This document shows, one piece after another, positions 3,701-37,710 of a stretch of DNA of 39,373 nucleotides. The position numbers and the translations under genes are program-made. Origin of the DNA: Kiritimatiellia bacterium (GTDB taxonomy: Bacteria > Verrucomicrobiota > Kiritimatiellia > RFP12 > JAAYLN01); assembly GCA_017458965.1 (NCBI GenBank), contig JAFSZJ010000089.1, positions 1-39,373 on the forward strand. Direction: 5' to 3'. Position 1 is the stretch's first letter. Each line of letters opens with the position of its first letter. A model generated the notes under the pieces. That model saw only the letters and a list, made by a program, of their open reading frames with translations. It was not told where the DNA came from and did no database searches.

Positions 3701-6602
3701 GGCTCCAGTTGGCGGATGCGGCGGAGAGCGACGCGATGAGGTCGGTTCCGTTGTAGGAGGACCTGCTGGCCGTGACCGCAGTGATGACCGGCACTGCGTC
3801 GAAGACGCCAAAGCCTATCGTGCCGCCAACGTTGAGAACGCTAGCATCAGGAGTGTCGCTAAGCAGGTTGGCTTGCGCGGATGATGATGGGTTTCCTCCG
3901 GCCATGTTGACCTGGACGCGGAGCTTGCCGGCGTTTCCCCCTGTCTCATGATATAGCCGGATGTTGACGTCCGCCGCCTCGTCATTCTGAAGCGTATAGC
4001 CGGTATTGCCTGTGCCGTTTATCGTGCTATTCGCCACCTTCTTGTCGTTCTTGCCGGTGGAGTCGCGGCGCCACAGCTCAAACGTGACGGTTTTGTCAAG
4101 GGTGTTCGCCGTGGTGTCGTCCTTGATCATGCGCAGTTCATACCACGTCGCAGGCGTTTCTTCGGCGAGATACGAGTATGCCGGCTGGTATAGGAGAATG
4201 TACGAGAAGTAGGGCTTCGAGGGCGAGACATCCGAGAGATACCACTTCGTGGAAATGTAAAGTGACTGACCCGACGTCAGCGTCCAGCCTGTTCCGTCCT
4301 TGTAGATGGCGAAGTTGTCATCGCTCAAGGACGCACGGGCCTTGAACTCGATCTTCTCGAGGCCGTACGTGATGGTTGGGACCCTGGTCGAAGTGGGCGC
4401 CGGCTTGCCTAGGTTCTCGATCTGGCCGTCAAGTTTCACCGCCATGGACTTGTTCGCGGCGGCGGTCGTGCCTTTCAGCCGGTCGGTGAGGATGCGCGTC
4501 CCGGTGCGGTAGAAGCCAAGCTTCGTCTCGATGCCGCTGGACTCCCATGCGTCGGACGTGTCGTCGTACTGGAACGTCTCCCGCGCGTACTGCGTGCTAT
4601 CCTCGTCGTACCCGTCGAGGCTCCACTTGTTCGTCGAGACGACGGAGCCGGAGGCCGCCTCGGTTGCGTTGCCGTCGAAGTTCTCTGCGTAAGTCGTCGT
4701 GGGCAGGCCGCCGAGCGAGGATTCGTAGTAGTCGGGGGTCGCCGTCCAGTCGTCGAAGTCCTGGTAGACGGCCTTCTTGATGAGGTAGTCAAAGTCTCCG
4801 GCATCGTCGTCCGTCGAGAAACGGTAGAGGTAGAAGCCAGTGTAGTTCTTCTCGTTCAGGGCGACGACGCGGCCGACCGCGTCCCGGTCGAGGCTCTTCT
4901 CAAGGAAACCAGCGATCGTCGGGTCGGAGATGGCGTCAGGGTCGTTGTCGCCCCAGTACACGACGTCGGAGGAGTACTCGTCGGCATCGTCCGCATAGTA
5001 CCCATAGCCGCAGAAGTGGTTGGATATGACCGTGTAGCCGCCAACGGGGACGACGATCTGCCACCGCTCGGCATCGACGAGCGTGAGGGAGTCGTTGTTG
5101 CCCATGTTGGCGAATATCGTCGTATCCACCGGCGCGAAGGCGACGCGGCTGTAGCGGCTCGGATATGGGCGGACCTGATAGCGGCCGTATGAGTCCGGCA
5201 CCACGTGAACACTCGATTGCGATGTTGCGGTCGGCCTGCCGTCCTCTGTGGTGTTCTTCCAGTAGGTCGGACTGAGCGACTCGTATGCGAGTTCAGGATT
5301 CGAGACCAGCGGGTTGAGGCCGTAGCAGTAGCCGTCGAATGCGACTTCGTAGTAGTACCAAACATAGCCCGTGTTTGTGCCACCGATAGTGCCCTCATAC
5401 CAGTCCAAGCCATTCGTCGCACCGCGATATTCCATCGGCGTCGAGAGCCATTTCGACCGGTCCGCAGATGGTGAATCATTGCTCTTCGGCACGTACTGGT
5501 AGAAGCACGTCACCTGCCGGTTCGTCGCAGCCGTCGCCTCGACAACGTTTGTCACCGAACATCGGATCAGCACATTGCTCCCCTGAGACGGGTATCCTGG
5601 GTTCTCAAGCTTGTGGACGATCCCAACATCCGCCGGAGGCTTGGTTATACAGATATTGTCAATCGCGAGGCGGCCGGCTGTATGTGTCGGATTGTAACTG
5701 TTATAGTCGGAACGGAAAATCCGCACGTATGTTATAGTTGGATCGTTAAGAACGACGTGGCAAATTCTGGAGAAAACCTCGTCATTATCTTTGCCAAACT
5801 TGTATGTTGCTACGGTGTTCCAGTTTGTTCCGGGATAATCCTCTTCCGGCACGTACTCCGTATAGGCAACCTGCACCGTCAATTCGCTTTTCCTGCAGGT
5901 TGTAGCAGTAGCTAGTTTTGCCCTAAAGTCAATTGTGCCCACTCCGCCTTCAAGTTTTGGAGAACGAATATATGGGAGATGTGTTGCATCAATATTGAAG
6001 AAGAAGAACAATGGGTAAGCCATGGATTTCGAGGAGTCTGTTAAGGCGTATTGGCCACGTGGTGTGGCAGTCCAGAAATCTACGCCATTGGCAACCCACT
6101 GATCTCCGTTTGGCGTTGCGGCAGTCCAGTTGGTGGCGGTATTCGCCGTTTTTACCCATCCATAATTGGCATCCTGCCAAATGTCTTTAGTTGACGATTG
6201 CAGTTTTCCATCATGAAAACGGCTGTAGTCTATATTGGCACCAACAGATGTGAATTTTATTTCCGACGCATCTTCGCCATTCCAAGTGTACCACTCGAAG
6301 GTTGTAGCGACGCCGACTTCCGGCAAGTATCCTATGAAGTAGGTTGGCGACCGCGGAATCATTTTCACATCGGTCCAGGCGTTTGTGCCCACGCCACGGT
6401 ACGACAATGTCATTGCCGACACTTCGCCGTCTGACACGCTAGCCGCGACAGCGGTCATGGCCCCGTCATACAGGTCAGTAGGCATCGCCGTTGTGGAGAT
6501 GCTTACGGCCCCAACATGTCTGGCAATGAGACATGACAACATACAGCCTGCGCTTATCCGCAGGACCTGTTTGCCACTACCTTGCCAGACGTTTCTTTCC
6601 AT
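774..6602 (-). CDS. Giant secreted beta-sandwich protein with lamin-tail-like domain
   Basis: This is a 1942-residue exported protein of unknown function. A signal peptide is visible: basic residues near the start, a hydrophobic stretch around residues 14-32, then an Ala-rich site before VSISTTA. The body has recurring jelly-roll-like beta modules that end in an IDN/IDD motif, near residues 309 (RLAIDNICI), 1052 (VVIDDVNLS), 1228 (IVIDNLRTK) and 1405 (VVIDDVLVT). Each resembles the carbohydrate- or ligand-binding sandwiches found in large surface proteins. Residues about 1575-1720 contain FVNEIN, EEYVEF and GGWRF, typical of a lamin-tail domain. The C-terminus (FLRLRIIE) has no LPXTG or PEP-CTERM anchor. 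The first ~330 codons are visibly more AT-rich than the rest, perhaps a separately acquired module. The ATG is preceded by GGGGAG, buried in a perfect hairpin. Confidence 0.85.
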   Translation of the reverse strand: MERNVWQGSGKQVLRISAGCMLSCLIARHVGAVSISTTAMPTDLYDGAMTAVAASVSDGEVSAMTLSYRGVGTNAWTDVKMIPRSPTYFIGYLPEVGVATTFEWYTWNGEDASEIKFTSVGANIDYSRFHDGKLQSSTKDIWQDANYGWVKTANTATNWTAATPNGDQWVANGVDFWTATPRGQYALTDSSKSMAYPLFFFFNIDATHLPYIRSPKLEGGVGTIDFRAKLATATTCRKSELTVQVAYTEYVPEEDYPGTNWNTVATYKFGKDNDEVFSRICHVVLNDPTITYVRIFRSDYNSYNPTHTAGRLAIDNICITKPPADVGIVHKLENPGYPSQGSNVLIRCSVTNVVEATAATNRQVTCFYQYVPKSNDSPSADRSKWLSTPMEYRGATNGLDWYEGTIGGTNTGYVWYYYEVAFDGYCYGLNPLVSNPELAYESLSPTYWKNTTEDGRPTATSQSSVHVVPDSYGRYQVRPYPSRYSRVAFAPVDTTIFANMGNNDSLTLVDAERWQIVVPVGGYTVISNHFCGYGYYADDADEYSSDVVYWGDNDPDAISDPTIAGFLEKSLDRDAVGRVVALNEKNYTGFYLYRFSTDDDAGDFDYLIKKAVYQDFDDWTATPDYYESSLGGLPTTTYAENFDGNATEAASGSVVSTNKWSLDGYDEDSTQYARETFQYDDTSDAWESSGIETKLGFYRTGTRILTDRLKGTTAAANKSMAVKLDGQIENLGKPAPTSTRVPTITYGLEKIEFKARASLSDDNFAIYKDGTGWTLTSGQSLYISTKWYLSDVSPSKPYFSYILLYQPAYSYLAEETPATWYELRMIKDDTTANTLDKTVTFELWRRDSTGKNDKKVANSTINGTGNTGYTLQNDEAADVNIRLYHETGGNAGKLRVQVNMAGGNPSSSAQANLLSDTPDASVLNVGGTIGFGVFDAVPVITAVTASRSSYNGTDLIASLSAASANWSHGGQRADGEDRWTVTSSQITREVPDQMIGIYVGDVVDDEERVMIDSLKNATVFTTNVSSLAFSDVTLPIHSWARKFVTLRYVDGDGGVVIDDVNLSPWRAFTRYEGDSLHAGGLADGYLDWKAQSEQDAWLESTISTLPFDSMYDHWAVLEGVVKNAGAFQIGAEFTRSRANPALAQGVVSPEMTNHIGSISFSYSVGGEAGQHVAYAVEYTEEDDYTTWITKAVYTNAVGETGSRYEKIGKYYPGRVRVRILGDGTDPDATIVIDNLRTKDYPDNNGNAWVAYNLLITEGNSTNMNLIAGNSLINSGLIYNNNGKSCFLNNSQTNGTYGTEVYGEDNPYLQTPPLTGVGVGEITFRYRLVPEADGTVRDGEINIVIGTEYEGEPGKRGDGEWKALTNITLSATADEGSIFVPFSNDKIFEEDYFVVRFYNSTNTATRSRVVIDDVLVTAPARPSFEFEYVLLAPVQPLAGSNTTVEAKIMRQILNPQGIRIFCSWHTYSEGETWGYKNWLDPNDASCRVELAKVGDSHVYRAEGGIPGTNDIDDIVEYVVWGRHAAIDIEHGDPPIVQGLDTFENPEWYKTFNASSMTMSDLDMNADHAQEGWSPYYWVYSCAPGTFFVNEINNWYSSSATADRGTEEYVEFAAPAGTDIGGWRFAMVGGMSGSTSSSVGSARGKDSYTVAEGTTIPHDTGNGWGFFVWGDEWMDNEDAAFTDSATTAKENIGTYAGILVYRSNNAIEQMVSFGTERYVSGSGWEDFTYAGRKVNRLADSLSLLSRSDSETGEQIAGSTVDDFYWYTGAHTPGAVNGVAQVFDDLPYDEPVGSRFFAPSGVEVTNANVLAWIRNNSYTQSDINALGDNAAADSEFNTRYLLNQDLKARSCTHSLNITSVSVDGTSMHATATLTRTEDGDDVESGRGINGRLVLEGADTLSDGFYQLDPTAREVETVDPTSGDANEDFSHSNDVDIHFLRLRIIE

Positions 6603-6605
6603 GGC

Positions 6606-6634
6606 ACACTCCCCTTACGTAGTAAGGGGAGTGT
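6606..6634 (-). promoter_or_regulatory. 13-bp hairpin sequestering the RBS of the giant gene
   Basis: A perfect 13-bp stem with a 3-nt loop (arms 6606-6618 and 6622-6634) ends 3 nt before the ATG. On the mRNA the 3' arm holds GGGGAG, the only Shine-Dalgarno-like sequence, 6 nt from the start. Folded, it would block initiation. A second copy of the SD-arm sequence (GTAAGGGGA, plus-strand 6716-6724) near the predicted 5' end could pair with the opposing arm and free the site. Confidence 0.55.
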
Positions 6635-6665
6635 CTTTAAAACATCCGTCCCGCAAAAAAAAGAG

Positions 6666-6694
6666 TTGACAAGAATCTACCGCAGTGCTATAGT
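6666..6694 (+). promoter_or_regulatory. Sigma70-type promoter facing the transposase
   Basis: TTGACA (6666-6671), a 17-nt spacer and TATAGT (6689-6694) on the plus strand. It lies inside the leader of the giant gene and faces the transposase, so the two transcripts would overlap for about 40 nt in antisense. Either could silence the other. Confidence 0.55.
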
Positions 6695-6715
6695 CTCGTG
6701 GGGCAGTGTTGTCAT
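6677..6715 (-). CDS. Possible 12-aa leader peptide before the giant gene
   Basis: In the leader of the giant gene an ATG is followed by 12 codons (MTTLPHETIALR) and TAG, with purine-rich GTAAGGTAAGGGGA just upstream. Translating it would cover GTAAGGGGA, which can otherwise pair with the anti-SD arm at 6622-6634, so ribosome occupancy could couple to the main gene. The composition shows no obvious amino-acid sensing code. It may be chance. Confidence 0.3.
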   Translation of the reverse strand: MTTLPHETIALR

Positions 6716-6741
6716 TCCCCTTACCTTACTTGAATGAAATG

Positions 6742-6771
6742 ATTATACACCCACGAATCGCATAAAGTCAA
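6742..6771 (-). promoter_or_regulatory. Sigma70-type promoter for the giant gene
   Basis: On the minus strand TTGACT (6766-6771), an 18-nt spacer and a perfect TATAAT (6742-6747). The predicted start near 6735 gives a leader of about 130 nt holding the possible leader peptide and the RBS hairpin. Confidence 0.6.
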
Positions 6772-6779
6772 TACAAAAT

Positions 6780-7008
6780 TTTCGTATATTACAAAATATT
6801 ACATTGCAAAGTTTTACCGTCAAGCTCTATTCTTTTCCTTTTCCTATTCCCTTTTCTTTGGGGTCCGTTTCTTTCCCTCTCCTCTCTTTCTCTTCCCCCC
6901 CTTTTTTTTTTGAATTTTTGGCTATGTTTTGTATGCTTTGTGTATGCTTTGGGGTCTGTCCCCATTTTTGTCTTGCCTTCGGCGGAGTGAGCCAATACAA
7001 TCTTTACC
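6780..7008. other. Pyrimidine-rich, low-complexity region before the transposase
   Basis: From about 6820 the plus strand is dominated by runs of T and C, ending in a C-run and a T10 run near 6902. Then come repeats of TATGCTTTG-like words (6930-6950) and a small hairpin GGGG-TCTGT-CCCC (6951-6963). I see no gene. TACAAT at 6996-7001, 7 nt before the transposase ATG, could be its own -10 box. Confidence 0.6.
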
Positions 7009-7968
7009 ATGAGACGGGCGAGATTGAAGGTCAAGGACGGGTGCTATCACATCGTGAGCCGCATCAACGGGAAGCGTTTTCTGATCGACGACAAGGAGAA
7101 GTCTGAGCTCCTTTCGGCGATCCGCGCCGCCGCCGACTTCTCGGGCGTGGAGGTATTCACCTACGCAATGATGACAAACCACTTCCATCTTCTGGTCCGC
7201 GTCCCGAAGAAGCGCGAGGTCAACGACAACGAGCTGTGCCGCCGTGTCCGCTCCCTCTACGGCGACGACAGGGCCGAGAAGGTATTCAAGAAGTGGGACA
7301 ACTGGGAGTTTTTCGGTCTGTTCGCCAAGGTCAATGACGAGAAGGCCCGCCTACGCGCCCGCATGTACGACCTCTCCCAGTTCTGCAAGACTTTCAAGGA
7401 AACATACACCCAGGGCTACAACAAGCGCACAGGCAATACCGGCACGATCTGGGAGGGCCGCTTCAAGAGCAACCTCGTCGAGCCATCAGCCCGCGCCCTG
7501 CTTGCCGTCGCGGCGTATATACACCTCAACCCCGTCCGCGCAAATATGGCCGACACGCCCGATGCCGCCAAGTGGACTGGCTTCGGCGACGCCGTCGCGG
7601 GCGATGTCGCCGCGAAACTTGGACTAATAGCGCTGATAACCCTCATCGACCAGGCCAACCAGGGTCCGGCAAAGTGGTCGCATGTCCGAGGCGTTTTCAA
7701 CCACATTCACCTTGGCCGCATGGCCGTGGATGGGAGGGAACAACCTGCAAGCACGAAAGGCGCGGGATCTGCCGCAGCAAACCAGCTCAAGCCGCTGCTG
7801 ATGCGCCGGACGTCGGACTTCCTGAATGGAGCCGCACTAGGATCGCCAGCATTTCTGCGCAGGGTTGCACTCATGCTGCCAGAACGCAGGAACCGAAAAC
7901 CACCCGGCGTGTTCGATGACCGCCCCGCACTAGGTCTTTCCTCGGCACTAGGTGTGCGCGGGGCGTAG
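7009..7968 (+). CDS. REP-associated tyrosine transposase (RAYT, Y1_Tnp)
   Basis: A 319-residue protein of the IS200/IS605-like Y1 transposase superfamily, RAYT branch: single-strand DNA endonucleases that cut and join at REP hairpins and usually sit alone as domesticated genes. The HUH metal motif is seen as TNHFHLL (His58, His60). The helix carrying the catalytic tyrosine is FCKTFKETYTQGYNKR (Tyr133 or Tyr137), followed by the family signatures TIWEGRFKS (about 146-154) and YIHLNPVRAN. The C-terminal ~100 residues are not conserved as far as I can judge. There are no flanking terminal inverted repeats. The TAG stop is part of GTAG, which opens a REP-like hairpin unit copied downstream. No clear SD precedes the ATG. 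Confidence 0.9.
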   Translation: MRRARLKVKDGCYHIVSRINGKRFLIDDKEKSELLSAIRAAADFSGVEVFTYAMMTNHFHLLVRVPKKREVNDNELCRRVRSLYGDDRAEKVFKKWDNWEFFGLFAKVNDEKARLRARMYDLSQFCKTFKETYTQGYNKRTGNTGTIWEGRFKSNLVEPSARALLAVAAYIHLNPVRANMADTPDAAKWTGFGDAVAGDVAAKLGLIALITLIDQANQGPAKWSHVRGVFNHIHLGRMAVDGREQPASTKGAGSAAANQLKPLLMRRTSDFLNGAALGSPAFLRRVALMLPERRNRKPPGVFDDRPALGLSSALGVRGA

Positions 7969-8142
7969 CGTGGCGGGCGCCGCGAGCGGCGCATTACAGA
8001 TTTCAGATTTCAAATCTCACAGGGTTGCTTTGGGCGGCGCATTACAGATTTCAAATCTCAGATCTCACAGGGTTGCTTTGGGCGTAGCGTGGCGGGCGCC
8101 GCGAGCGGCGCATTGCAGATCTCAAATCTCAAATCTCATAAG
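7961..8142 (+). repeat. REP-like hairpins with heptad tails after the transposase
   Basis: Two near-identical units 119 nt apart (7961-8001 and 8080-8120) contain GTAG, then the perfect hairpin GCGCCGC-GA-GCGGCGC (7977-7992 and 8096-8111), then CATTACAGAT or CATTGCAGAT. A third, truncated unit at 8035 keeps only the 3' half of the hairpin. Between them are 7-nt words such as TTCAGAT, TTCAAAT and ATCTCAA, and a repeated CAGGGTTGCTTTGGGCG. GTAG plus a hairpin is the known recognition layout of RAYT enzymes. Confidence 0.75.
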
Positions 8143-8204
8143 GGTGGGTGCACCTGCGTGATCGCGCAGCAGGATGGGCGGCACAGGGAGCTGCGGGTTG
8201 GCGG

Positions 8205-8310
8205 AGTCAATAAAGTTGTTAATAATTGCATAGTATTTTGGAAATGTGTTTTATATGCAGATAATAAGTGAAGTTATCAACAGGTGTTTATAAAGTTGTT
8301 GATAACTTTT
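8205..8310. promoter_or_regulatory. AT-rich region with inverted repeat and DnaA-box-like words
   Basis: A sharply AT-rich segment between the REP-like units and lpxK. It contains a perfect 12-bp inverted repeat, AAGTTATCAACA (8271-8282) and TGTTGATAACTT (8297-8308), with a 14-nt spacer. Each arm holds TTATCAACA, one base from the DnaA box TTATCCACA. ATAAAGTTGTT followed by ATAA-like sequence is also directly repeated 80 nt apart (8210 and 8290). It could be an operator for the lpxK-murA run or a DnaA-binding cluster. Confidence 0.45.
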
Positions 8311-8354
8311 GCCGCAATTGGAACGGGGGATGCTATACAATCTGCCTAAAAGAT

Positions 8355-9512
8355 ATGAAACGGGCCGAGCCAACAAGACAGGAGATGCTCTGGCGCTTCA
8401 TGGAACGGCTTATCCGTCAGGAGGGAGCCGACATCGGGCAGCCAAAGTCGATTCGTTTTCTGCTTTGGTGGCTTAACCTTTTTTCAAAAGGCTATAGCGC
8501 TGTCGTGAAGGCCAGGGCTTGGCTTTACGATCATGCGTTTATGCCGCAGTTTCCCCTTGGATGCCAGGTGATAAGCGTGGGCAACGTTACCGCCGGCGGC
8601 ACGGGCAAGACCCCTGTCGTGGAGATCCTGGCGCGGACTCTGACCGAAGAAGGACGGAAGGTGGCCATACTCTCGCGTGGCTACCGCTCGAAGAAGCGCT
8701 CCGCGACAGAACGCGGACCACGCATCGTGAGCGACGGACGCCATGTTCTGCTCGACAGCGAAATGGGCGGCGACGAGCCGTTCATGCTTGCCCGGAACCT
8801 TCCCGGAGTCGCCGTGCTGGTTGACAAGGACCGCGTGAAGAGCGGACGGTATGCCGTAGCCAACTTCGGCAGCGACGTCCTGCTGCTTGACGATGGCTTC
8901 CAATACCGACGCCTCAAGCACTCGCACGAAATCGTTCTTGTGGACAGCACCAACCCGTTTTCAAACGGCCACCTGCTCCCGCGGGGCACGCTTCGCGAAC
9001 CAGCATCTCACATCAAGCGCGCCGATATCATCTTCATGACGAAGTCAAACGGGGACACGGCCTTGCTGCGGGCGCGCATCAAGAAGCTAAACCCGTCCGC
9101 GACGATAACCGAATGCCGCCACTGCCCGAAGTTCTTCAAAAACGCATACTCGGACGACCAGATTTCGCTGGACGCTTTAAACGGAAAGAAGGTGGTGGCT
9201 CTTTCAGGAATCGCCTCACCGCAGAGTTTCGAGGCCTCCCTGCAGAAAATGGGCGCAACGATCATCAGCAGGGAACGGTTCTCCGACCACTATCGGTACC
9301 GTCCGCAGGAAATACTAGATATAATCGCGGCGGCGGACGAACTCGGCGCCGATTACATCCTAACGACCGAGAAGGACGCTGTGCGTCTGCCGCATCTGGA
9401 GTCGCCAAAGGTCCCTATCTACTACATGCGGATGGAGATCGAAATACTCAATGGGTACGGTAACTTCAAGGAACTCGTTAAAAAAATATGCTTCGCGGAG
9501 AAGAATGAGTAG
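8355..9512 (+). CDS. lpxK: Tetraacyldisaccharide 4'-kinase
   Basis: LpxK phosphorylates the 4' position of the tetraacyldisaccharide-1-phosphate lipid A precursor at the inner face of the inner membrane, using ATP. The 385-residue product has the family P-loop [13 protein letters not shown] (about 75-87), with an N-terminal hydrophobic segment (FLLWWLNLF) for membrane contact. [12 protein letters not shown] and PRGTLREP are further LpxK signatures. I place the start at 8355 because a frame opening at 8268 would begin inside the AT-rich inverted-repeat region. A TATACAAT sequence at 8334-8341 gives a very short leader and there is no SD. The TAG stop belongs to GTAG, which leads straight into a heptad array and then murA. 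Confidence 0.93.
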
Positions 9513-12244: not shown

Positions 12245-12268
12245 GCCGCGTTGCTGGCGCAACGCGGC
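12241..12268 (+). repeat. REP-like hairpin at the dnaN stop codon
   Basis: GTAA (including the dnaN stop) is followed at once by a perfect 10-bp stem with a TGGC loop: GCCGCGTTGC (12245-12254) and GCAACGCGGC (12259-12268). The AGATAAT heptads begin on the next base. The layout matches the unit at the end of etfA. It could stop or protect the transcript, but has no T-tract. Confidence 0.7.
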
Positions 12269-12420
12269 AGATAATAGATAACAGATAATAGATAGGAGAT
12301 AAGAGATGGAAGATGAGAGATAGTGATTAGTGGTTAGTGTTTTTTCGACCTTTGTCTTTCGACTTTTTAACCTTTGACCTTTTAATCTTTCAACCTTCAA
12401 CTTTTCAACTCTAATACACC
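12269..12420. repeat. Heptad array T4, two opposed halves, dnaN-clpP gap
   Basis: The first half has ten units in exact register: AGATAAT, AGATAAC, AGATAAT, AGATAGG, AGATAAG, AGATGGA, AGATGAG, AGATAGT, GATTAGT, GGTTAGT (12269-12338). The second half is pyrimidine-rich with units such as CGACCTT, TGTCTTT, CGACTTT, TTAACCT, TTGACCT, TTTCAAC and CTTCAAC. These are the complement of the AGTCGAA words seen before murA. The clpP ATG follows with no SD. Confidence 0.85.
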
Positions 12421-17553: not shown

Positions 17554-17695
17554 CTCAAATCTCAGATTTCAGATCTCATAATTTCTCCCGATCCCATCTT
17601 TTATCTCTCATCTCCTATCTCCCATCTCTAATCTCTAATCTCTTATCTGTTATCTGTTATCTGTTATCTGTTATCTATTATCTATTATCTGCTTT
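17552..17695 (-). repeat. Heptad array T6 filling the kinase-gmhB gap
   Basis: About twenty 7-nt units with one small break near 580-590. On the plus strand, from 17592: TCCCATC, TTTTATC, TCTCATC, TCCTATC, TCCCATC, TCTAATC twice, TCTTATC, TGTTATC four times, TATTATC twice. Nearer gmhB the units are ATCTCAA, ATCTCAG, ATTTCAG, ATCTCAT. On the coding strand this is AGATAAT/AGATAAC after the kinase gene, and it provides the kinase stop codon and the last codons (ADNR). The gmhB ATG falls inside the other end. Confidence 0.85.
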
Positions 17696-18655
17696 GCTAT
17701 GCGCCAGTATCTCCTCAGGCGTGGCGGTCGCGGTGCCGACTTTCTCGACGACGACTCCAGCGGCGTGGTTGGCAAGTTCGGCGGCCTTCTCCGGCTCGGC
17801 CCCGGCCGCCAGCGCGGCGACAAGCGCGGCGACAACAGTGTCACCGGCGCCGGAGACGTCGAAGACCGCGCGCGCGGCAGTCGGGATCTGGCGACGCGGC
17901 ACACCGCCGGTCGAAAGCATCATGCCGTCGGCGCCAAGCGTCACGACAAGGAGTCGTGTGGCGTAGCGCTCGTGGAGCACGCGGCAGACCTCGGCCGCCG
18001 GGAATGGATCGGACGGCGAAACGCCCTGGATACCGGCGAGCTGGAGCGCCTCGGCCCTGTTGGGCGTGATGAGGCCCATGTCGAAGAAATCAAGACCCTG
18101 TCGCGGCTTCGGATCGAGCGCGATAAGCTTGTCCTTGCCGCCGATTTTGCGAAGAGAACGGATGAGATCGGAGGTGACGACGCCCTTTGCGTAATCGGAG
18201 ACGATAACGGCGTCGGCGGCCGCGACGAGTTTGGGAAGTTCGTGAGCCACGAAGTCATCGCCAAGCGCATACGAGGAAGGCGGACCTTCGCGGTCGATGC
18301 GGCAAAGCTGCTGGCCGCGGCACATTACGCGCGTCTTGTGGACGGTGCCGGTTCCTTCACGGACAAGCGACGGCGCGATGGCTATACCCTTCGAGGAAAG
18401 GATTTCGCGAAGCTTTGCCCCGCCTTCATCGTCACCTATCACGCCGACGAGATCCACGGACGCGCCGAGTGCGCGTAGGTTGGAGGCGACGTTCGCGGCC
18501 CCGCCTGCCGTGAAGGTGTCGCGGTCGGCCTTGACAACCGGGACTGGCGCCTCTGGCGAGATGCGCGTCGCGTCGCCCCAGAGGTAATGGTCGAGCATCA
18601 GGTCGCCTACGACCAGGACGCGTACGCCGGATATCCGTTCGAGAAGGGTCCGCAT
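17678..18655 (-). CDS. hldA: D-glycero-D-manno-heptose-7-phosphate kinase (HldA / HldE N-domain)
   Basis: A 325-residue PfkB-family sugar kinase matching the kinase half of HldE (RfaE domain I): VLVVGDLMLDHYLWG, RISPEAPVPVV, TAGGAANVASNLRALGA, and the catalytic DVSGAGDTVVA near the C-terminus. The nucleotidyltransferase half found in E. coli HldE is missing, so the activity would be split. I start it at 18655 (MRTLLERI), 5 nt after the upstream stop; a longer frame would run through the upstream gene. The C-terminal residues ADNR and the TAA come from the heptad array, so the original end may have been replaced. Confidence 0.87.
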   Translation of the reverse strand: MRTLLERISGVRVLVVGDLMLDHYLWGDATRISPEAPVPVVKADRDTFTAGGAANVASNLRALGASVDLVGVIGDDEGGAKLREILSSKGIAIAPSLVREGTGTVHKTRVMCRGQQLCRIDREGPPSSYALGDDFVAHELPKLVAAADAVIVSDYAKGVVTSDLIRSLRKIGGKDKLIALDPKPRQGLDFFDMGLITPNRAEALQLAGIQGVSPSDPFPAAEVCRVLHERYATRLLVVTLGADGMMLSTGGVPRRQIPTAARAVFDVSGAGDTVVAALVAALAAGAEPEKAAELANHAAGVVVEKVGTATATPEEILAHSKADNR

Positions 18656-24401: not shown

Positions 24402-24437
24402 ATGCGGCCGGCGCCGCCGGCCGTGCGGAACTACAAC

Positions 24438-25250
24438 ATGGATACCACGAAGCGAGGCTTGCGCAGCGTCGTCTGCGTGAAGCAGGTGCCCGATACCAAA
24501 CAGGTGACCGGCGACGCCATGAGACCGGACGGCACTATCAACCGCGCCGCCCTTCCGGCGATCTTCAACCCGGAGGACAGGAACGCCCTTGAGGCGGCCC
24601 TGTCCGTCCGCGACGCCTGCGGCGGGACGGTGGCCGTCGTCACGATGGGGCTTCCCGCCGCGTCCGCCATCCTGCGCGAGGCCCTCGCATGCGGCGCCGA
24701 CGAGGTCTACCTCGTCACGGATCGCCGCGCCGCGGCATCCGACACCCTAGCCACGAGCTACATCCTCTCGCAGGCCGTCGCCAAGCTCCGGCCCGACCTT
24801 GTCTTCTGCGGACGTCAGGCCATAGACGGCGACACGGCACAGGTCGGACCCCAGATCGCCGAGAAGCTCGGCTTCGCCCTCGTCGCCTACGCCTCCGAGG
24901 TATCCATCGACGAACACGGCCTCGCCGTCGCCCGCCGCGATGTCGGATCCGGCGTCGAGACGACGCGCACTCGCCTGCCGGCGCTCTTAACCGTGTCGTC
25001 CGCCGCCGCTCCGCTCCGCCCGCGCAACGCCAAGCTCCTGATGAAGTACAAGAACGCGGAGCCGACGGTCTGGTCTCTCGACGACATCGGCGCAGACCTC
25101 TCGCGCTGCGGCAAGGCCGGAAGCCCGACGAACGTCAGCCGCGTGCAATCCGTCGTCCTCGCGGGCGGCGACTACCGGGCATTCTCCGCCGACGAGGAGG
25201 GCGCAAAGGCCCTCGTCGCCGAACTGGTCGCCTCGCACACCCTCGGCTGA
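24438..25250 (+). CDS. etfB: Electron transfer flavoprotein beta subunit
   Basis: EtfB pairs with EtfA to carry electrons from acyl-CoA dehydrogenases. The 270-residue product opens with the typical SVVCVKQVPDT and has the nucleotide-binding segment CGRQAIDGDTAQVGP (about 119-133). This DGDTAQVGP form is the one I associate with EtfB of anaerobes, including electron-bifurcating complexes, rather than the DDDCNQTGQ form of mitochondrial-type EtfB. I prefer the ATG at 24438 because it gives the family N-terminus; an ATG at 24402, directly after the infC stop, would add 12 residues. etfA follows after 13 nt. Confidence 0.92.
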   Translation: MDTTKRGLRSVVCVKQVPDTKQVTGDAMRPDGTINRAALPAIFNPEDRNALEAALSVRDACGGTVAVVTMGLPAASAILREALACGADEVYLVTDRRAAASDTLATSYILSQAVAKLRPDLVFCGRQAIDGDTAQVGPQIAEKLGFALVAYASEVSIDEHGLAVARRDVGSGVETTRTRLPALLTVSSAAAPLRPRNAKLLMKYKNAEPTVWSLDDIGADLSRCGKAGSPTNVSRVQSVVLAGGDYRAFSADEEGAKALVAELVASHTLG

Positions 25251-25263
25251 AAGGACTTCGCAC

Positions 25264-26307
25264 ATGGCACACGTGAACAAAAACGGCGAGGTCTGGGTCT
25301 TCGCGGAGCAGGAGGACGGATCCTTCGGCAACATCCCGTTCGAACTTCTCGGCAAGGGACGCGAGCTTGCGGACAAATTGGGCGTGAAGCTCGGCGCGGT
25401 GCTGATGGGTTCCGGCGTCGAGCCGCTCGCCGCGGAACTTGGCGCCCGCGGCGCGGACCGCGTACACCTCTTCGACCATCCTCGTCTCGCCCGCTACCAG
25501 ACGGCGTCGTATTCCCGTCTCCTCGCCGACGCCATCCTCGCCGATGAACCGCAGATATGCCTTTTCGGCGCGACGCCGACCGGGCGTGATCTCGCCCCGA
25601 CCGTGGCATCGTCGCTCCGCTGCGGCCTCACGGCGGACTGCACCGACCTCCAGATCGGCTCCTACGACGATCCGGTCGCCAAGGAGACATACGAAGGCGT
25701 CCTGCACCAGATACGCCCGGCCTTCGGCGGCAACATCATCGCAACGATCGTCAACCCGCGCGACTGGCCGCAGATGGCGACCGTCCGCGAAGGCGTCATG
25801 AAACCGCTCGCGTCCGACCCGTCCCGCAAGGCGGAGATCGTCCGGCGCGACACGTCCGCCCTTGACGCGATGGAGCTTCCGACCGAAGTTCTGGACGTCG
25901 TCCGCAAGGTCAAGACCGTCGATCTCGCCGGCGCGCGCATAATCGTGGCCGGCGGCGCCGGCGTCGGCTCCAAGGAGAACTTCGGCCTTCTGCGCGAACT
26001 CGCGGACGCGCTCGGCGGAGCGGCCGTCGGCGGAAGCCGCGCGGCGTGCGACCTCGGCTATCTGCCATCCGATTGCCAGATCGGGCAGACCGGCACGACG
26101 GTTCGCCCCGCCCTCTATGTGGCGTGCGGCATATCCGGCGCCGTCCAGCATGTCGCCGGCATGCGCGACAGCGCCAAGATCATCGCCATCAACACCGATC
26201 CGTCCGCACCGATATTCTCGGTCGCCCACTACGGTATCGTCGGCGACCTGCGCAAGGTCATCCCGATGCTTGTAGCCTCGCTGCGGGAGCCGCAGCGAGG
26301 CAGATAA
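25264..26307 (+). CDS. etfA: Electron transfer flavoprotein alpha subunit
   Basis: The 347-residue alpha subunit carries the FAD-binding C-terminal domain: IVAGGAGVGSKENF, then GQTGTTVRPALYVACGISGAVQH and IIAINTDPSAPIF, all strongly conserved. AAGGA 8 nt before the ATG supports the start. It forms an operon with etfB and probably with the downstream acyl-CoA dehydrogenase. The last residues (ASLREPQRGR) and stop are encoded by a REP-like hairpin and the first heptad, so the original C-terminus seems to have been overwritten by the element; the family usually ends near LIPAL/ELKK-type residues. Confidence 0.94.
   Translation: MAHVNKNGEVWVFAEQEDGSFGNIPFELLGKGRELADKLGVKLGAVLMGSGVEPLAAELGARGADRVHLFDHPRLARYQTASYSRLLADAILADEPQICLFGATPTGRDLAPTVASSLRCGLTADCTDLQIGSYDDPVAKETYEGVLHQIRPAFGGNIIATIVNPRDWPQMATVREGVMKPLASDPSRKAEIVRRDTSALDAMELPTEVLDVVRKVKTVDLAGARIIVAGGAGVGSKENFGLLRELADALGGAAVGGSRAACDLGYLPSDCQIGQTGTTVRPALYVACGISGAVQHVAGMRDSAKIIAINTDPSAPIFSVAHYGIVGDLRKVIPMLVASLREPQRGR
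26272..26301 (+). repeat. REP-like GTAG hairpin inside the 3' end of etfA
   Basis: GTAG (26272-26275) overlaps a perfect 12-bp stem: GCCTCGCTGCGG (26275-26286), loop GAG, CCGCAGCGAGGC (26290-26301). AGATAAC heptads start on the next base, as after dnaN. The stem sequence differs from the dnaN and transposase copies, but the order of parts is the same. Confidence 0.72.
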
Positions 26308-26434
26308 CAGATAACAGATAACAGATAACAGATGAGAGATAATAGATAACAGATAACAGATAACAGATAGGAGATGAGAGATAGGAGATAGTGGTTAGGG
26401 ATCAGGGATTAGTGGTTAGTAGATAAGAGATGGG
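26302..26434 (+). repeat. Heptad array T7a (AGATAAC type), etfA-acd gap
   Basis: Nineteen units in perfect 7-nt register with no indel: AGATAAC four times, AGATGAG, AGATAAT, AGATAAC three times, AGATAGG, AGATGAG, AGATAGG, AGATAGT, GGTTAGG, GATCAGG, GATTAGT, GGTTAGT, AGATAAG, AGATGGG. The first unit carries the etfA stop. The word drifts in the same order as in the array after dnaN. Confidence 0.92.
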
Positions 26435-26440
26435 CGGGAA

Positions 26441-26648
26441 ACGAACTAACGAATCAACGACGCAACGGATAAACGGACCAACGGATAAACGGACCAACGG
26501 ACCAACGGATAAACGGATAAACGGACCAACGGATAAACGGATAAACGGACCAACGGATAAACGGACCAACGGATAAACGGACCAACGGATAAACGGACCA
26601 ACGGATAAACGGACCAACGGATAAACGGATAAACGACGCAACGAACGA
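26441..26648 (+). repeat. Octamer array T7b of 26 exact 8-nt units
   Basis: Twenty-six 8-nt units without a single indel. Three edge units (ACGAACTA, ACGAATCA, ACGACGCA), 21 central units that are all ACGGATAA or ACGGACCA in mixed order, then ACGACGCA and ACGAACGA. The final A is the A of the acyl-CoA dehydrogenase ATG, so the array is the whole 5' UTR and no SD exists. The opposite strand is open in all frames (RLSVGPFI-type octapeptides), but I do not call a gene there. Confidence 0.93.
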
Positions 26649-28327
26649 TGAACTTCTTCACGGACAACGACGACATCTCCCTGGCCCTTTCGCTCGCGGA
26701 CATGGAGCGCCTTGCGACCCTCTCCGAGCATGGCTTCTGCTTCGCAAAGGATTTCGACTGGGCGCCGAAGGATGCGGCGGACGCCGCGGACAGCTATCGG
26801 CGGGTACTTGAGCTCGTCGGCGAGATCGCCGCGGAGCGCCTCGCCCCGACCGCGGCCGAGACCGACCGCAACGGCTCAGTCCTCGGCGACGACGGGCAGG
26901 TCCATTACGCCAAGGGCATTCGCGAGGCGATAGACCTCTTCGGCAAGGCCGGTCTCATGGGCTTCACGCTCCCGTACAAGTACGGCGGCCTCAACATGCC
27001 GGCGACGCTCTACACGGCCGCCACGGAGATAGTCAGCCGCGCCGATGCCTCGTTCATGAACATTTTCGGGCTCCAGGGGATCGCCGAGACGATAAACGCC
27101 TTCGCCTCCGACGAGCTCAAGGACGCCTACCTGCCCGACCTCGCAGCAGGGCGTACGACCGGCGCGATGGTCCTCACGGAGCCTGACGCCGGAAGCGACC
27201 TTCAGGCAGTCGCAACCCGCGCCTATATCGCGGACGACGGCGAGTGGCGCGTGAACGGCGTCAAGCGCTTCATCACCAACGGATGCGGCGACGTCCTGAT
27301 CGTGCTCGCCCGCACCGAGGAAGGCTCGACGGACGGGCGTGGTCTCTCCTGTCTCCTCGTCGAGAAGGGGCCGCGCGTCCGCGTCCGCCGCATCGAGGAC
27401 AAGCTCGGCATCCATGGAAGCCCCACCTGCGAGATAGTCTTCGACGACGCCCCGGCAAAGCTCATCGGCCTGCGCCAGCGCGGCCTCATCACCTATGTCA
27501 TGTCGCTCATGAACGCGGCCCGCCTCGGCATCGCCGCGCAGAGCCTCGGCATAGGCGAAGCCGCCCTTCGCGTCGCCACCGACTACGCGAAGGAGCGCCG
27601 CCAGTTCGGAGCGGCCATCGCCACCTTCCCGGCGATCGCCGACCTCCTTTTCACGATGTCGTCCGACCTCCAGGCCGCCAGGGCCATCACATACTACGCC
27701 GCCGTCTGCGTCGATCTCGAGCGCGGGCTCGAGGACAAGCAGCAGTCTCGCAAGTACCGCAACTTCTGCAAGCTCCTCACACCGATGGCGAAATACTACT
27801 CGTCCGAGATGTCGATGCGCGTCGCAAACGGCGCCGTCGCCGTCCTCGGCGGAAGCGGCTACATGCGCGACTACCCGGCAGAGCGCCTTCTCCGCGACAG
27901 CCGCATAACGACCATCTACGAGGGCACCTCGCAGCTCCAGATCGTCGCCGCGTCCGGCGGCGTCCTCGGCGGGACGCTCAAGGAGGCTGTCGAGGATGTG
28001 CTCGCGTCGAGGGAATGGGACGAGACGCTTGCCCCCGAAGTCGCCAAGGTCCGCGAGGTCGTCGCGCTCATCGACGAGGCCGTCGCATTCGTCAAGACGC
28101 AGGACGCCGCCTACCGCGACCTATCCGCACGCCGCCTCGTCGATATGTCCGCCATCGCGCTGGCCGGTGCGCTCCTTTGCGCCCAGGCCGCCGTATGCGA
28201 ACAGAAGAAACGCATACTCTCGCGCTGGATGCTCGAAGGCGTTGCAAAGGCAAAGGCGATGCACGCAATCGTCGTCAGCGGAGACGCGGCGCCGATTGCG
28301 CCGCAGGCGGACGCAGAAAGTAGATAA
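26648..28327 (+). CDS. Acyl-CoA dehydrogenase, long form
   Basis: A 559-residue FAD enzyme that oxidises acyl-CoA to enoyl-CoA and passes electrons to ETF; its partner genes etfBA are directly upstream. The ACAD fold is complete: an N-terminal helical domain, MVLTEPDAGSDLQAV near residue 175, GVKRFITNG, then RRQFG and the catalytic-base region IYEGTSQLQ with Glu425 in the position used by short- and medium-chain enzymes. The C-terminal ~120 residues form an extra helical domain found in long ACADs. There is no SD; the ATG abuts the octamer array. The final residue and stop (SR then TAA) come from the following heptad array. Chain-length preference cannot be read. Confidence 0.92.
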   Translation: MNFFTDNDDISLALSLADMERLATLSEHGFCFAKDFDWAPKDAADAADSYRRVLELVGEIAAERLAPTAAETDRNGSVLGDDGQVHYAKGIREAIDLFGKAGLMGFTLPYKYGGLNMPATLYTAATEIVSRADASFMNIFGLQGIAETINAFASDELKDAYLPDLAAGRTTGAMVLTEPDAGSDLQAVATRAYIADDGEWRVNGVKRFITNGCGDVLIVLARTEEGSTDGRGLSCLLVEKGPRVRVRRIEDKLGIHGSPTCEIVFDDAPAKLIGLRQRGLITYVMSLMNAARLGIAAQSLGIGEAALRVATDYAKERRQFGAAIATFPAIADLLFTMSSDLQAARAITYYAAVCVDLERGLEDKQQSRKYRNFCKLLTPMAKYYSSEMSMRVANGAVAVLGGSGYMRDYPAERLLRDSRITTIYEGTSQLQIVAASGGVLGGTLKEAVEDVLASREWDETLAPEVAKVREVVALIDEAVAFVKTQDAAYRDLSARRLVDMSAIALAGALLCAQAAVCEQKKRILSRWMLEGVAKAKAMHAIVVSGDAAPIAPQADAESR

Positions 28328-28412
28328 CAGATAATAGATAACAGATAACAGATAACAGATAATAGATAATAGATAGCAGATAATAGATGATAGATGGTGG
28401 ATGGCGGAGGAT
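28320..28412 (+). repeat. Heptad array T8 (AGATAAC type), acd-tRNA gap
   Basis: GTAG (28320-28323) runs into thirteen units from 28322: AGATAAC, AGATAAT, AGATAAC three times, AGATAAT twice, AGATAGC, AGATAAT, AGATGAT, AGATGGT, GGATGGC, GGAGGAT. The first unit holds the TAA stop of the acyl-CoA dehydrogenase. A perfect 7-bp hairpin (GCGGCGC-CGATT-GCGCCGC) lies about 20 nt earlier inside the gene. Confidence 0.88.
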
Positions 28413-28463: not shown

Positions 28464-28539
28464 GGGGCGATAGCTCAATTGGTAGAGCACATCCCTTTTA
28501 AGGATGGGGTCGCGGGTTCGATCCCCGCTCGCCCTACCA
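28464..28539 (+). tRNA. tRNA-Lys (anticodon UUU)
   Basis: A full cloverleaf of 76 nt including an encoded CCA (28537-28539). Acceptor GGGGCGA pairs with TCGCCCT (first pair G-U). The D arm is GCTC/GAGC, the anticodon stem CATCC/GGATG encloses CTTTTAA with anticodon TTT, and the T arm is CGGG-TTCGATC-CCCG-like (GCGGGTTCGATCCCCGC). It has its own promoter. Confidence 0.97.
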
Positions 28540-31427: not shown

Positions 31428-34046
31428 TCACAACGCATCCGCCGCAAGTGCCTGGCGGACGCGCGGGAGGTCGTCGGAGCGCGTCTGCGCGAGCGTGGCC
31501 GCGACGCTTGCGCCGTAAATGGCGAGAAGAGCCAGCGCGCATACGGCGATGGCGCGAATGGCGCCACGGAAAACCGATGGTCTCCGACCGACCACCGCGA
31601 GCACCGCCGCAGCGAACCAGAAAGCGATCCAGCCTATGGCGGCGATGTCGATCCTGGTCGCGAGCGATGGTCCGTAGTGCCATGCAAGAAGAGTGCGAGA
31701 CGCCGGGAGGGTGCCGGGCGCACCTTCCTCCGAAAGCGACGCCTTCATGGAGTTGGCTACGGACATGGGCGTGCCAAGGCGTCTTCCGGCGGCGACGAAC
31801 GCCTCCATTGCGGCCCCCTTACGCCCGGCCAGAAGAAGCGCCACCCCCAGGTTGTAGTCAAGCGCCCCGGATCCGTAGCCGTTCTCGCGCATCGCGAAGT
31901 AGATGCGGGCCGCGTCAAGGAACTCTTCTTCCGTGGCGGCCGTGGACATGGCCTGGGTCGCGCGCTCCCATTCGAATGTGGGCGGAGGCTGCGACGCGGC
32001 TTCGGCACACCCTGCGCCAAGCAGCGTCACGGACAGTACCACCGCCAACGCGCCAAGACGCCGCGTGGCCGCATCGATGGCCTTGCGCAGACGCATGACC
32101 GCATCGACGACCGAAGACTTATCGGCCGCGCCGGACGCGTACGAGAGCCGCTCAAGATCCGAGAACGAATCGACCAGATCACGGATCTCGCCATCCGCGA
32201 CCGAATGCTTCGTCAACGCCGAGGCTATATCGTCGGCCGACGGACTCGCCGTGCGCATCCGAAGCCGCGCCGAGAGCGCCTTCCTCGCGGCTCCGATGGC
32301 CTTCGACGCCGCCAGGGCGGGATCCGACTCCGCGAGCGCAAGCGCCCGCGACATGTCGCCGGTCGAGCGCGAGGAGCGTTCGCGCAGCGCGGACGCGGCG
32401 CGAACGGCAAGCCTCCTGAACGGACGGACTAGCGCGCATAGCAGCCAGAGAAGCGGCGCGACGATGAGCAGCGGGCGCATCCGTCTGTCCGCGATGAAGT
32501 GTGGCCGCGTGTCCGCCGGTGAGAGGATTATTCCGTCCGGCAGCAGCAGCGCCGCCGACGATTGGGCGTCGCCCTCCTCGCCCATTGACGAGGATGCGGC
32601 GATGCGGGTGGTCTCCTCGACCTGTAGCGGCATGGGGTCGGTGGCGACAGTGACGTATTCCCGCCTCTCGGTGTCGTAGTAGGCCAGTCGCACAGCCGGG
32701 AACTCAAGCGTTCCTGAGACTATGGGGCGGACGCGGTACTTGAAGCGGCGGCCATTCTCGATCGGTTCGGTCTCGACGTTCTCGTCGTAGAGGCGGAAGG
32801 CCTCGGCGGCCTCCGCTTGCAGGGCGAGGACCGGTGGCCGGAGATTCGAGAGGCTGAACTCCCCATCGACGTCGATGGATAGCGTGAGCGGATCGCCCAC
32901 TTTGCAACGCGCCGTGTCGAAAGAAGCGCGGGCGCGCATGGACTTGCCAACAGGTCCCACGAACCAATCCGGGCGTCCTTCCTCCGGCGGCGGCTCCACG
33001 CGCACCGTCGCAGCTGGTCCGATCACGAACACCTCGTCAAGCGTCGCCTCCATCCTGTCGTTGACAGCTACGATTATCTGCCCCTTTAGGGTGGCCGGTC
33101 CGAATGTGTATGTGCCTTCGGCCTTCGGCGTATACGGGATCTCCACGGAGTATTCGTACACGAACGCATCGCCCGACTTGACGCGGGTCGGCGGCAACCG
33201 GAAGTCGATGGCGCGTCCGAAGACGTCCGCGAAGGAGTTGATAGTGAACGACGGCGAACGACCGCTGAAAAAGGTGTCTCGCGGAGCGAAGCGGCCAAGG
33301 ACGGTGTTCGAGTCCGGGCGCGACAGCCCCTTGGTCTCGTCCTCGGAGAGATACGCGGCGTCGATGTGCGGTGGTCGGCCGGGGAAGAGCGGCTCCACAC
33401 CCTGTCGCGGCTCCTTGATCGATACGACCATGCGTATCTTGAACGGCTCGTCCACGAGGACGCTTTCCTTGGCGCACTCGATGCGCACCGAGATGTCGTC
33501 GCGCGCCTCCACGCCGGAGACGGACACCCTGATGCCCGGGGCGCGGACGATCCCGCCAGGCGTAGTCATCGTAACCTCGCCCGTGTCGAATACGCCGGCT
33601 TCGCTCGGTGTCGCGCGGAAGACGAACGTCCGCCCCTCGTAGGAATCGACGGTCATCTTCCCGTTGATGATGATCGTCGAGCGTCGTGTCTCGTCGCGGG
33701 ATGTCACGTACTCGATGCCGTCCGGGTTGGCGAAGGCCGGGATGTTCGATCCATCCCTTGTGCCGGATGCCGCCACCTGGATAACGACCGACTCGCCAAG
33801 ATAGATTCGTTGGCGCTCAGCCGAGACACGGAGCGAGACGGACGAGGGGGAGGCGGCGAGGAGGAGGGGAGAGGATAGCAGATAGCAGATAGTAGATAGC
33901 AGATAGCAGATAACAGATAATGGATAACAGATAACAGATAATAGATAACAGATAACAGATAATAGAGGGGGGCGCGGGGAGAGGGGGGATGGGTGGTTTC
34001 TCATCCTCTTCAACTCATCAACCAATTTCCGACCCAAACCCGCCAC
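31428..34046 (-). CDS. batD: BatD-like protein fused to a BatE-like TPR lipoprotein
   Basis: An 872-residue envelope protein resembling BatD of the Bacteroides aerotolerance operon. The periplasmic part (about 65-520) has repeated Ig-like beta domains, such as VSLRVSAERQRIYLGESVVI. A membrane helix follows near 520-540 (LLIVAPLLWLLCALV). From about residue 651 the sequence looks like a second protein: MRLRKA, a hydrophobic stretch, the lipobox LLGAGC (Cys680) and a TPR-like YNLGVALLLAGRKGAAMEAF, then two C-terminal helices. That is BatE-like, fused in frame. Residues 28-58 are LLSVICY-type heptapeptides encoded by a heptad array and form the N-terminal export/membrane segment. A GTG start at 34046 has AAGGGG upstream; an ATG 14 codons in is an alternative. 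Confidence 0.75.
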   Translation of the reverse strand: MAGLGRKLVDELKRMRNHPSPLSPRPPLLSVICYLLSVICYPLSVICYLLSTICYLLSSPLLLAASPSSVSLRVSAERQRIYLGESVVIQVAASGTRDGSNIPAFANPDGIEYVTSRDETRRSTIIINGKMTVDSYEGRTFVFRATPSEAGVFDTGEVTMTTPGGIVRAPGIRVSVSGVEARDDISVRIECAKESVLVDEPFKIRMVVSIKEPRQGVEPLFPGRPPHIDAAYLSEDETKGLSRPDSNTVLGRFAPRDTFFSGRSPSFTINSFADVFGRAIDFRLPPTRVKSGDAFVYEYSVEIPYTPKAEGTYTFGPATLKGQIIVAVNDRMEATLDEVFVIGPAATVRVEPPPEEGRPDWFVGPVGKSMRARASFDTARCKVGDPLTLSIDVDGEFSLSNLRPPVLALQAEAAEAFRLYDENVETEPIENGRRFKYRVRPIVSGTLEFPAVRLAYYDTERREYVTVATDPMPLQVEETTRIAASSSMGEEGDAQSSAALLLPDGIILSPADTRPHFIADRRMRPLLIVAPLLWLLCALVRPFRRLAVRAASALRERSSRSTGDMSRALALAESDPALAASKAIGAARKALSARLRMRTASPSADDIASALTKHSVADGEIRDLVDSFSDLERLSYASGAADKSSVVDAVMRLRKAIDAATRRLGALAVVLSVTLLGAGCAEAASQPPPTFEWERATQAMSTAATEEEFLDAARIYFAMRENGYGSGALDYNLGVALLLAGRKGAAMEAFVAAGRRLGTPMSVANSMKASLSEEGAPGTLPASRTLLAWHYGPSLATRIDIAAIGWIAFWFAAAVLAVVGRRPSVFRGAIRAIAVCALALLAIYGASVAATLAQTRSDDLPRVRQALAADAL
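33873..33963 (+). repeat. Heptad array T9 inside the batD-like coding sequence
   Basis: Thirteen units in exact register on the plus strand: GGATAGC, AGATAGC, AGATAGT, AGATAGC twice, AGATAAC, AGATAAT, GGATAAC, AGATAAC, AGATAAT, AGATAAC twice, AGATAAT. The gene is on the other strand, which reads TGTTATC and has no stop in any frame, giving repeated LLSVICY. Here the array lies before a gene and in the opposite sense to the 3'-end arrays. Confidence 0.92.
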
Positions 34047-37618: not shown

Positions 37619-37710
37619 CGTTAGGCGATTTGACGCAATTCCATTAGGTGATTTGACGCAATTTCGTTAGGCGATTTATCGCGATTCCGTTATGCGATCT
37701 AGGACTTTGC
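37619..37710. repeat. 23-bp iteron-like tandem repeat upstream of the ATPase
   Basis: Four consecutive units in exact 23-nt register at 37619, 37642, 37665 and 37688. The core is NRTTAGGCGATTTGACGCAA-like: units 1 and 2 differ at four positions, unit 3 has TTATCGCGA instead of TTGACGCAA, and unit 4 keeps only CGTTATGCGAT. The array starts 40 nt from the ATPase ATG. Its period fits two helical turns, as in iterons or operator arrays. Confidence 0.8.

Follow-up and report, generated by a model that had tools for sequence, protein, structure and literature searches.

Degenerate heptamer arrays between genes are familiar from cyanobacteria as the short tandemly repeated repetitive (STRR) heptamers, whose words appear to differ from the words and octamers described here. 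The closest known parallel to the present arrays, and the nearest published case, is that of the TAACTGA direct repeats of Beggiatoaceae, which are also found in Cyanobacteria and Bacteroidetes and for which a post-transcriptional role via an RNA-binding protein has been proposed (MacGregor 2015, PMC4679880). Long simple sequence repeats with units of 5–11 nt, heptamers being the commonest, were described by Mrazek et al. 2007 as cited in PMC4679880, where a bias of slippage toward 7 nt is also attributed to Mrazek and co-workers. A search of the literature on octamer arrays, STRR, and repeats in Kiritimatiellae found no direct report. The octamer array studied here, which the original prediction took for the whole 5′ UTR of an acyl-CoA dehydrogenase gene, is not a one-off device of that UTR and is one of 168 arrays in its genome.

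The octamer array in the gap between etfA and acd

The window, the whole stretch of 39,373 nucleotides that was analysed, is contig C42 of a MAG (1.75 Mb, 63% complete) that is probably affiliated with Kiritimatiellae/Lentisphaerae, judging by the closest named homologs of its dehydrogenase. The features at the locus are as follows.

24402..25250, plus strand: etfB, electron transfer flavoprotein beta subunit (Pfam, NCBIfam)
25264..26307, plus strand: etfA, electron transfer flavoprotein alpha subunit, the upstream gene of the conserved operon (Pfam, NCBIfam)
26301..26440, plus strand: degenerate 7-nt array (AGATAAC/AGATAGG and related words) decaying toward 26433, with the 7-nt junction GCGGGAA
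26441..26648, plus strand: 8-nt tandem array of 26 units (12 ACGGATAA, 9 ACGGACCA, and 5 edge units)
26648..28327, plus strand: acd, acyl-CoA dehydrogenase, 559 aa (Pfam, NCBIfam, homolog N-termini)
28322..28408, plus strand: 7-nt array AGATAAC/AGATAAT after acd, providing the acd stop codon (repeat scan)

The segment 26441–26648 consists of 26 octamers without an indel, reading 5′ to 3′ ACGAACTA, ACGAATCA, ACGACGCA, 21 central units, and then ACGACGCA and ACGAACGA, and it ends at 26648, on the A of the acd ATG. The original prediction had described this boundary and the indel-free division of 208 nt into 21 central and five edge units correctly, while its phrase "26 perfect units" holds for the central units only. 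These comprise 12 copies of ACGGATAA (T) and 9 of ACGGACCA (C) in the order TCTCCTTCTTCTCTCTCTCTT, so two words are indeed mixed, as predicted, but not at random, since unlike neighbours stand side by side in 16 of 20 cases and alternation exceeds chance (permutation p = 0.007). TRF detected higher-order periods of 16 and 24 nt, which, together with the excess alternation, fit the duplication of 2- and 3-unit blocks and make a code unnecessary. No ATG, GTG, or TTG is present on the sense strand of the 208-nt array and no SD sequence was found where it meets the acd ATG. The start of acd at 26648 is supported by homolog matches that begin at query residue 2 and by homolog N-termini that read MANFFxDN; the closest named homologs belong to Lentisphaerae/Kiritimatiellae MAGs.

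The gap between etfA and acd is 340 nt long in this genome and contains 31 stop codons over the three frames. Its upstream part is a 7-nt array that begins at 26301 and extends to about 26420, the first unit of which provides the etfA stop TAA (26305–26307), just as the acd stop codon falls in the first unit of the array that follows that gene. Periods 7 and 8 therefore do coexist in one gap, as had been claimed, and their pairing follows a rule of the whole genome described below; the claimed six nucleotides between the two arrays are an approximation, since the 7-nt register is lost between about 26420 and 26433 and is followed by GCGGGAA. Among relatives with a readable ETF-alpha-like ORF upstream, a set from which several minus-strand loci were left out, this ORF and acd are spaced by 10–68 nt with no array, including in Planctomycetota and Acidobacteria MAGs; upstream of acd in a few relatives at greater distance stands a different gene. 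This conserved, array-free junction indicates that the array most likely enlarged an intercistronic spacer. Neither a promoter-like site nor a terminator was found in the gap, which, with the short spacing in relatives, makes an operon spacer likelier than the predicted whole 5′ UTR, and the octamer array most likely sits in the spacer of a putative operon. Stable RNA structure in the gap was rejected, as its folding was at the level of shuffled sequence (z = 0.17), and so was a known RNA family or riboswitch, as no Rfam family matched there; the sole Rfam match was the tRNA gene at 28464–28536, which lies beyond acd and the 7-nt array that follows it. A plasmid search with the region matched only the etfA part. 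In a relative of the same family (G003), a 13-nt array (CACACCTTGTCCC) lies downstream of acd (L011:4522-4660), where the units here are of 7 nt.

Short tandem arrays across the genome

Arrays were surveyed by a search for periodic segments in 1.23 Mb of the genome, in which a home-made codon-usage caller placed 977 genes. The survey yielded 168 short tandem arrays and the block-shuffled control none, which excludes chance. Intergenic sequence holds 129 of the 168, and these occupy about 9.5 of the 96.6 kb of intergenic DNA (about 10%). Period 7 is the commonest and period 8 the second; these and their multiples dominate, along with some 9-nt units. The 7-nt words include AGATAAC, AGTGGAA, GGTCGAA, AATGCAC, and GGAACAA, and the 8-nt words CAACCTTT, ACGGACCA, and CCAACTAC, with further ACGGACC-type arrays at loci L131, L154, L164, and L176. 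Words drift gradually within single arrays, and identical stretches of up to 57–68 nt are common to separate loci, in one case including an identical switch from one word to another. Three further arrays lie within the window.

12268..12321, plus strand: 7-nt array AGATAAT/AGATAAC, 23 nt past a stop codon
17596..17690, minus strand: 7-nt array whose AGATAAC-type word reads on the minus strand, where the minus-strand gene 17678–18655 stops
33874..33966, plus strand: 7-nt array GATAACA/GATAGCA, upstream of a BatD-like minus-strand gene

Repeats of longer period occupy other gaps of the window, at 7986–8084 (48 nt, 2.1 copies) and 37619–37698 (23 nt, 3.5 copies). Contig ends fall in arrays in 15 of 178 cases (8.4% vs 2.0% expected; for example, L176:1-93, L180:1-113, and L236:3-75), indicating that arrays break the assembly and that their number and length are probably underestimated. 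On another contig of the same genome (C63), L203 carries at about 4563–9486 an exact inverted duplicate, no shorter than 424 nt, that includes a 7-nt array and flanking genes and may reflect either a true palindrome or an artefact of assembly.

The arrays follow rules of position and strand. Because a single genome served both to find and to test these rules, the p-values are a description of the pattern rather than independent confirmation. The sense strand is purine-rich in 37 of 45 stop-side arrays and pyrimidine-rich in 21 of 29 start-side arrays (Fisher p = 5.5e-6); the stop-side bias is in part a matter of definition, since gene calls would extend through an array that lacks stops, which would then be classed as in-gene. 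The 7-mers favour the stop side, where AGATAA units often provide the stop codon, as for etfA and acd, and the 8-mers the start side (p = 0.007). Where 7-mer and 8-mer arrays are paired, the order in the sense direction is 7 then 8 in all eight cases, two of them inside genes (p = 0.008). On the start side, start codons are fewer in sense than in antisense in 35 arrays and more numerous in 10 (p = 0.0002), and SD-like words are likewise fewer in sense (28 vs 4).

About 29 arrays lie in frame within called ORFs, among them those of MreC, a FabF-type synthase (KAS), GltD, an AcrB-type pump, a HemN-like protein, and uracil-DNA glycosylase, and 24 of the 29 are free of stops in all sense frames.

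L144:3402-3432, L225:799-984, L154:11140-11261, L164:12825-12886: in-frame arrays in AcrB-type, GltD, MreC, and FabF-type genes

These arrays encode inserted peptides of low complexity, for example NGPTDQRT and VEGRRSKVE. When compared to homologs of solved structure, the array region is 80 residues instead of 26 in GltD and 44 instead of 7 in AcrB, the array lying between two aligned stretches in both, while the FabF array is within an aligned loop region with a net gain of only a few residues. In MreC, the deviant unit AGATATC holds the frame open. The number of in-frame copies within ORFs suggests that the arrays behave as tolerated insertions.

Three copies of ACGGAYMA or of AGATARY were found in only 1 of 387 sampled genomes of the phylum, and CACTTTCC-type arrays in only 1 of 91 genomes of the order, in each case the present one. 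Three copies of CAACCYTT were found in 11 of the 387 phylum genomes, from six families, with almost no matches for the reversed control, and the peak of 134 matches in G173, of another family, was far above every other sampled genome. Judged from 11 short loci, CAACCTTT-sense arrays elsewhere usually precede a start codon (G002, G022, G009, G018, G405, and G173), the exceptions being two reversed loci of one genus and one family with inverted arrays away from starts. A viral contig (IMG/VR, L272:1140-1200) has ACGGATCA units, a similar but non-identical word, just before a start codon.

Origin and possible role of the arrays

Given the arrays observed, their positions, their in-frame copies in ORFs, and the short spacer in relatives, the account we consider probable is that short-unit arrays were inserted and grew genome-wide where coding constraints allow, the etfA–acd octamer array being a local member. 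At this locus, the short spacer of the conserved etfB–etfA–acd operon would have been replaced by a 7-nt and 8-nt composite and enlarged to 340 nt, with the 7-nt part giving the etfA stop codon and the 8-nt part running into the acd start. Growth would have proceeded in steps of one to three units, through slippage or unequal exchange, and would thereby produce the irregular two-word order. Insertion as the spreading step is what we infer; against it stands that no empty site turned up in a close strain, and identity to the closest acd homologs is 66%. Slippage at local seeds with later convergence keeps a small probability beside it, even though identical words stand at dozens of loci. The predominance of stop-free words in genes is what insertion followed by purifying selection predicts. 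In cis, the array would most likely serve as a leader that is tolerated and weakly structured, lacks start codons and an SD, and has stops in all three frames, so that acd translation would start without SD help and uncoupled from etfA translation. A regulatory role for the array is possible and not required. A further reading, in which the composite 7-mer/8-mer module is a class of mobile element with fixed coding polarity, spread by a putative repeat-adding or copying activity and giving upstream stops and SD-free downstream leaders, is unlikely.

The start-side 8-mers could instead be a dedicated post-transcriptional element, as candidate sites for ribosomal protein S1, a cold-shock protein, or another RNA-binding protein that would set downstream translation. 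This is consistent with 8-mers adjoining start codons, with sense words that avoid starts and SD-like words, with CAACCTTT arrays that precede starts in the same sense at most of the loci read in other families of the phylum, and with the analogous role proposed for TAACTGA repeats (PMC4679880). However, the words that occupy this position are many and different, and one of them, ACGGAYMA, is not rich in pyrimidines; moreover, arrays are also present in ORFs, two loci of another family are oppositely oriented, and purifying selection accounts for the bias without a binder, which leaves such an element a small chance of being the explanation. Similarly improbable, in our estimate, is that the arrays were born in place by local slippage, with 7–8 nt favoured, mutational bias making the words similar, and nothing passed from locus to locus. 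The gradual drift of words in single arrays and the 7-nt bias proposed by Mrazek and co-workers, as cited in PMC4679880, speak for such slippage, while identical words at dozens of loci, some protein-coding, the long stretches in the same order at separate loci, and the absence of ACGGAYMA and AGATARY from the other sampled phylum genomes argue against it.

That array copy number might tune expression, as originally proposed, is plausible, and the 26 near-identical units and the 16- and 24-nt duplications suggest a recent change in copy number. As the explanation of the array, a VNTR that switches or tunes acd expression is nevertheless quite doubtful, given similar arrays at ordinary housekeeping genes throughout the genome and a position that is probably within an operon. 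An artefact of short-read MAG assembly, to which the excess of arrays at contig ends and the exact inverted duplicate at L203 might point, is highly improbable for an array that lies well inside a 39 kb contig between intact genes, has a heterogeneous word order, and has in-frame counterparts in intact ORFs.

The preferred account of inserted and tolerated arrays describes a genome in which many gene borders have been rewritten by short arrays, with in-frame copies in core enzymes. Such a genome is a natural experiment on the extent to which a bacterium can dispense with intergenic DNA, spacer length, and SD signal. From the fixed 7-then-8 order and from the choice of words at starts and stops follow countable predictions for the old puzzle of heptamer arrays at gene borders, and these predictions oppose selection against stops and spurious starts to a dedicated binding function.

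Comparison with described repeat systems

Like the TAACTGA repeats, the present arrays have short units, are mostly intergenic, end at start codons, and are SD-poor, with some overlapping upstream gene ends or sitting in ORFs in a stop-free orientation (PMC4679880). The position near starts, generally without SD, is found here as well. The unit TAACTGA itself is absent, the units here being ACGGATAA/ACGGACCA and AGATAAC, and where TAACTGA is one fixed heptamer with 2–6 copies in BOGUAY (PMC4679880), many related words are present here, octamers occur besides heptamers in a fixed 7-then-8 order, the arrays are longer, and the phylum is a different one. With the long simple sequence repeats, as these are cited in PMC4679880, the genome shares a genome-wide enrichment of tandem repeats in which heptamers are commonest: the arrays are longer than chance allows, as the block-shuffled control indicates, and have units within 5–11 nt, period 7 ranking first and period 8 second. 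In contrast to those repeats as so described, the arrays of this genome follow rules of position and polarity at starts and stops, with octamers that adjoin start codons and in-frame copies in enzymes.
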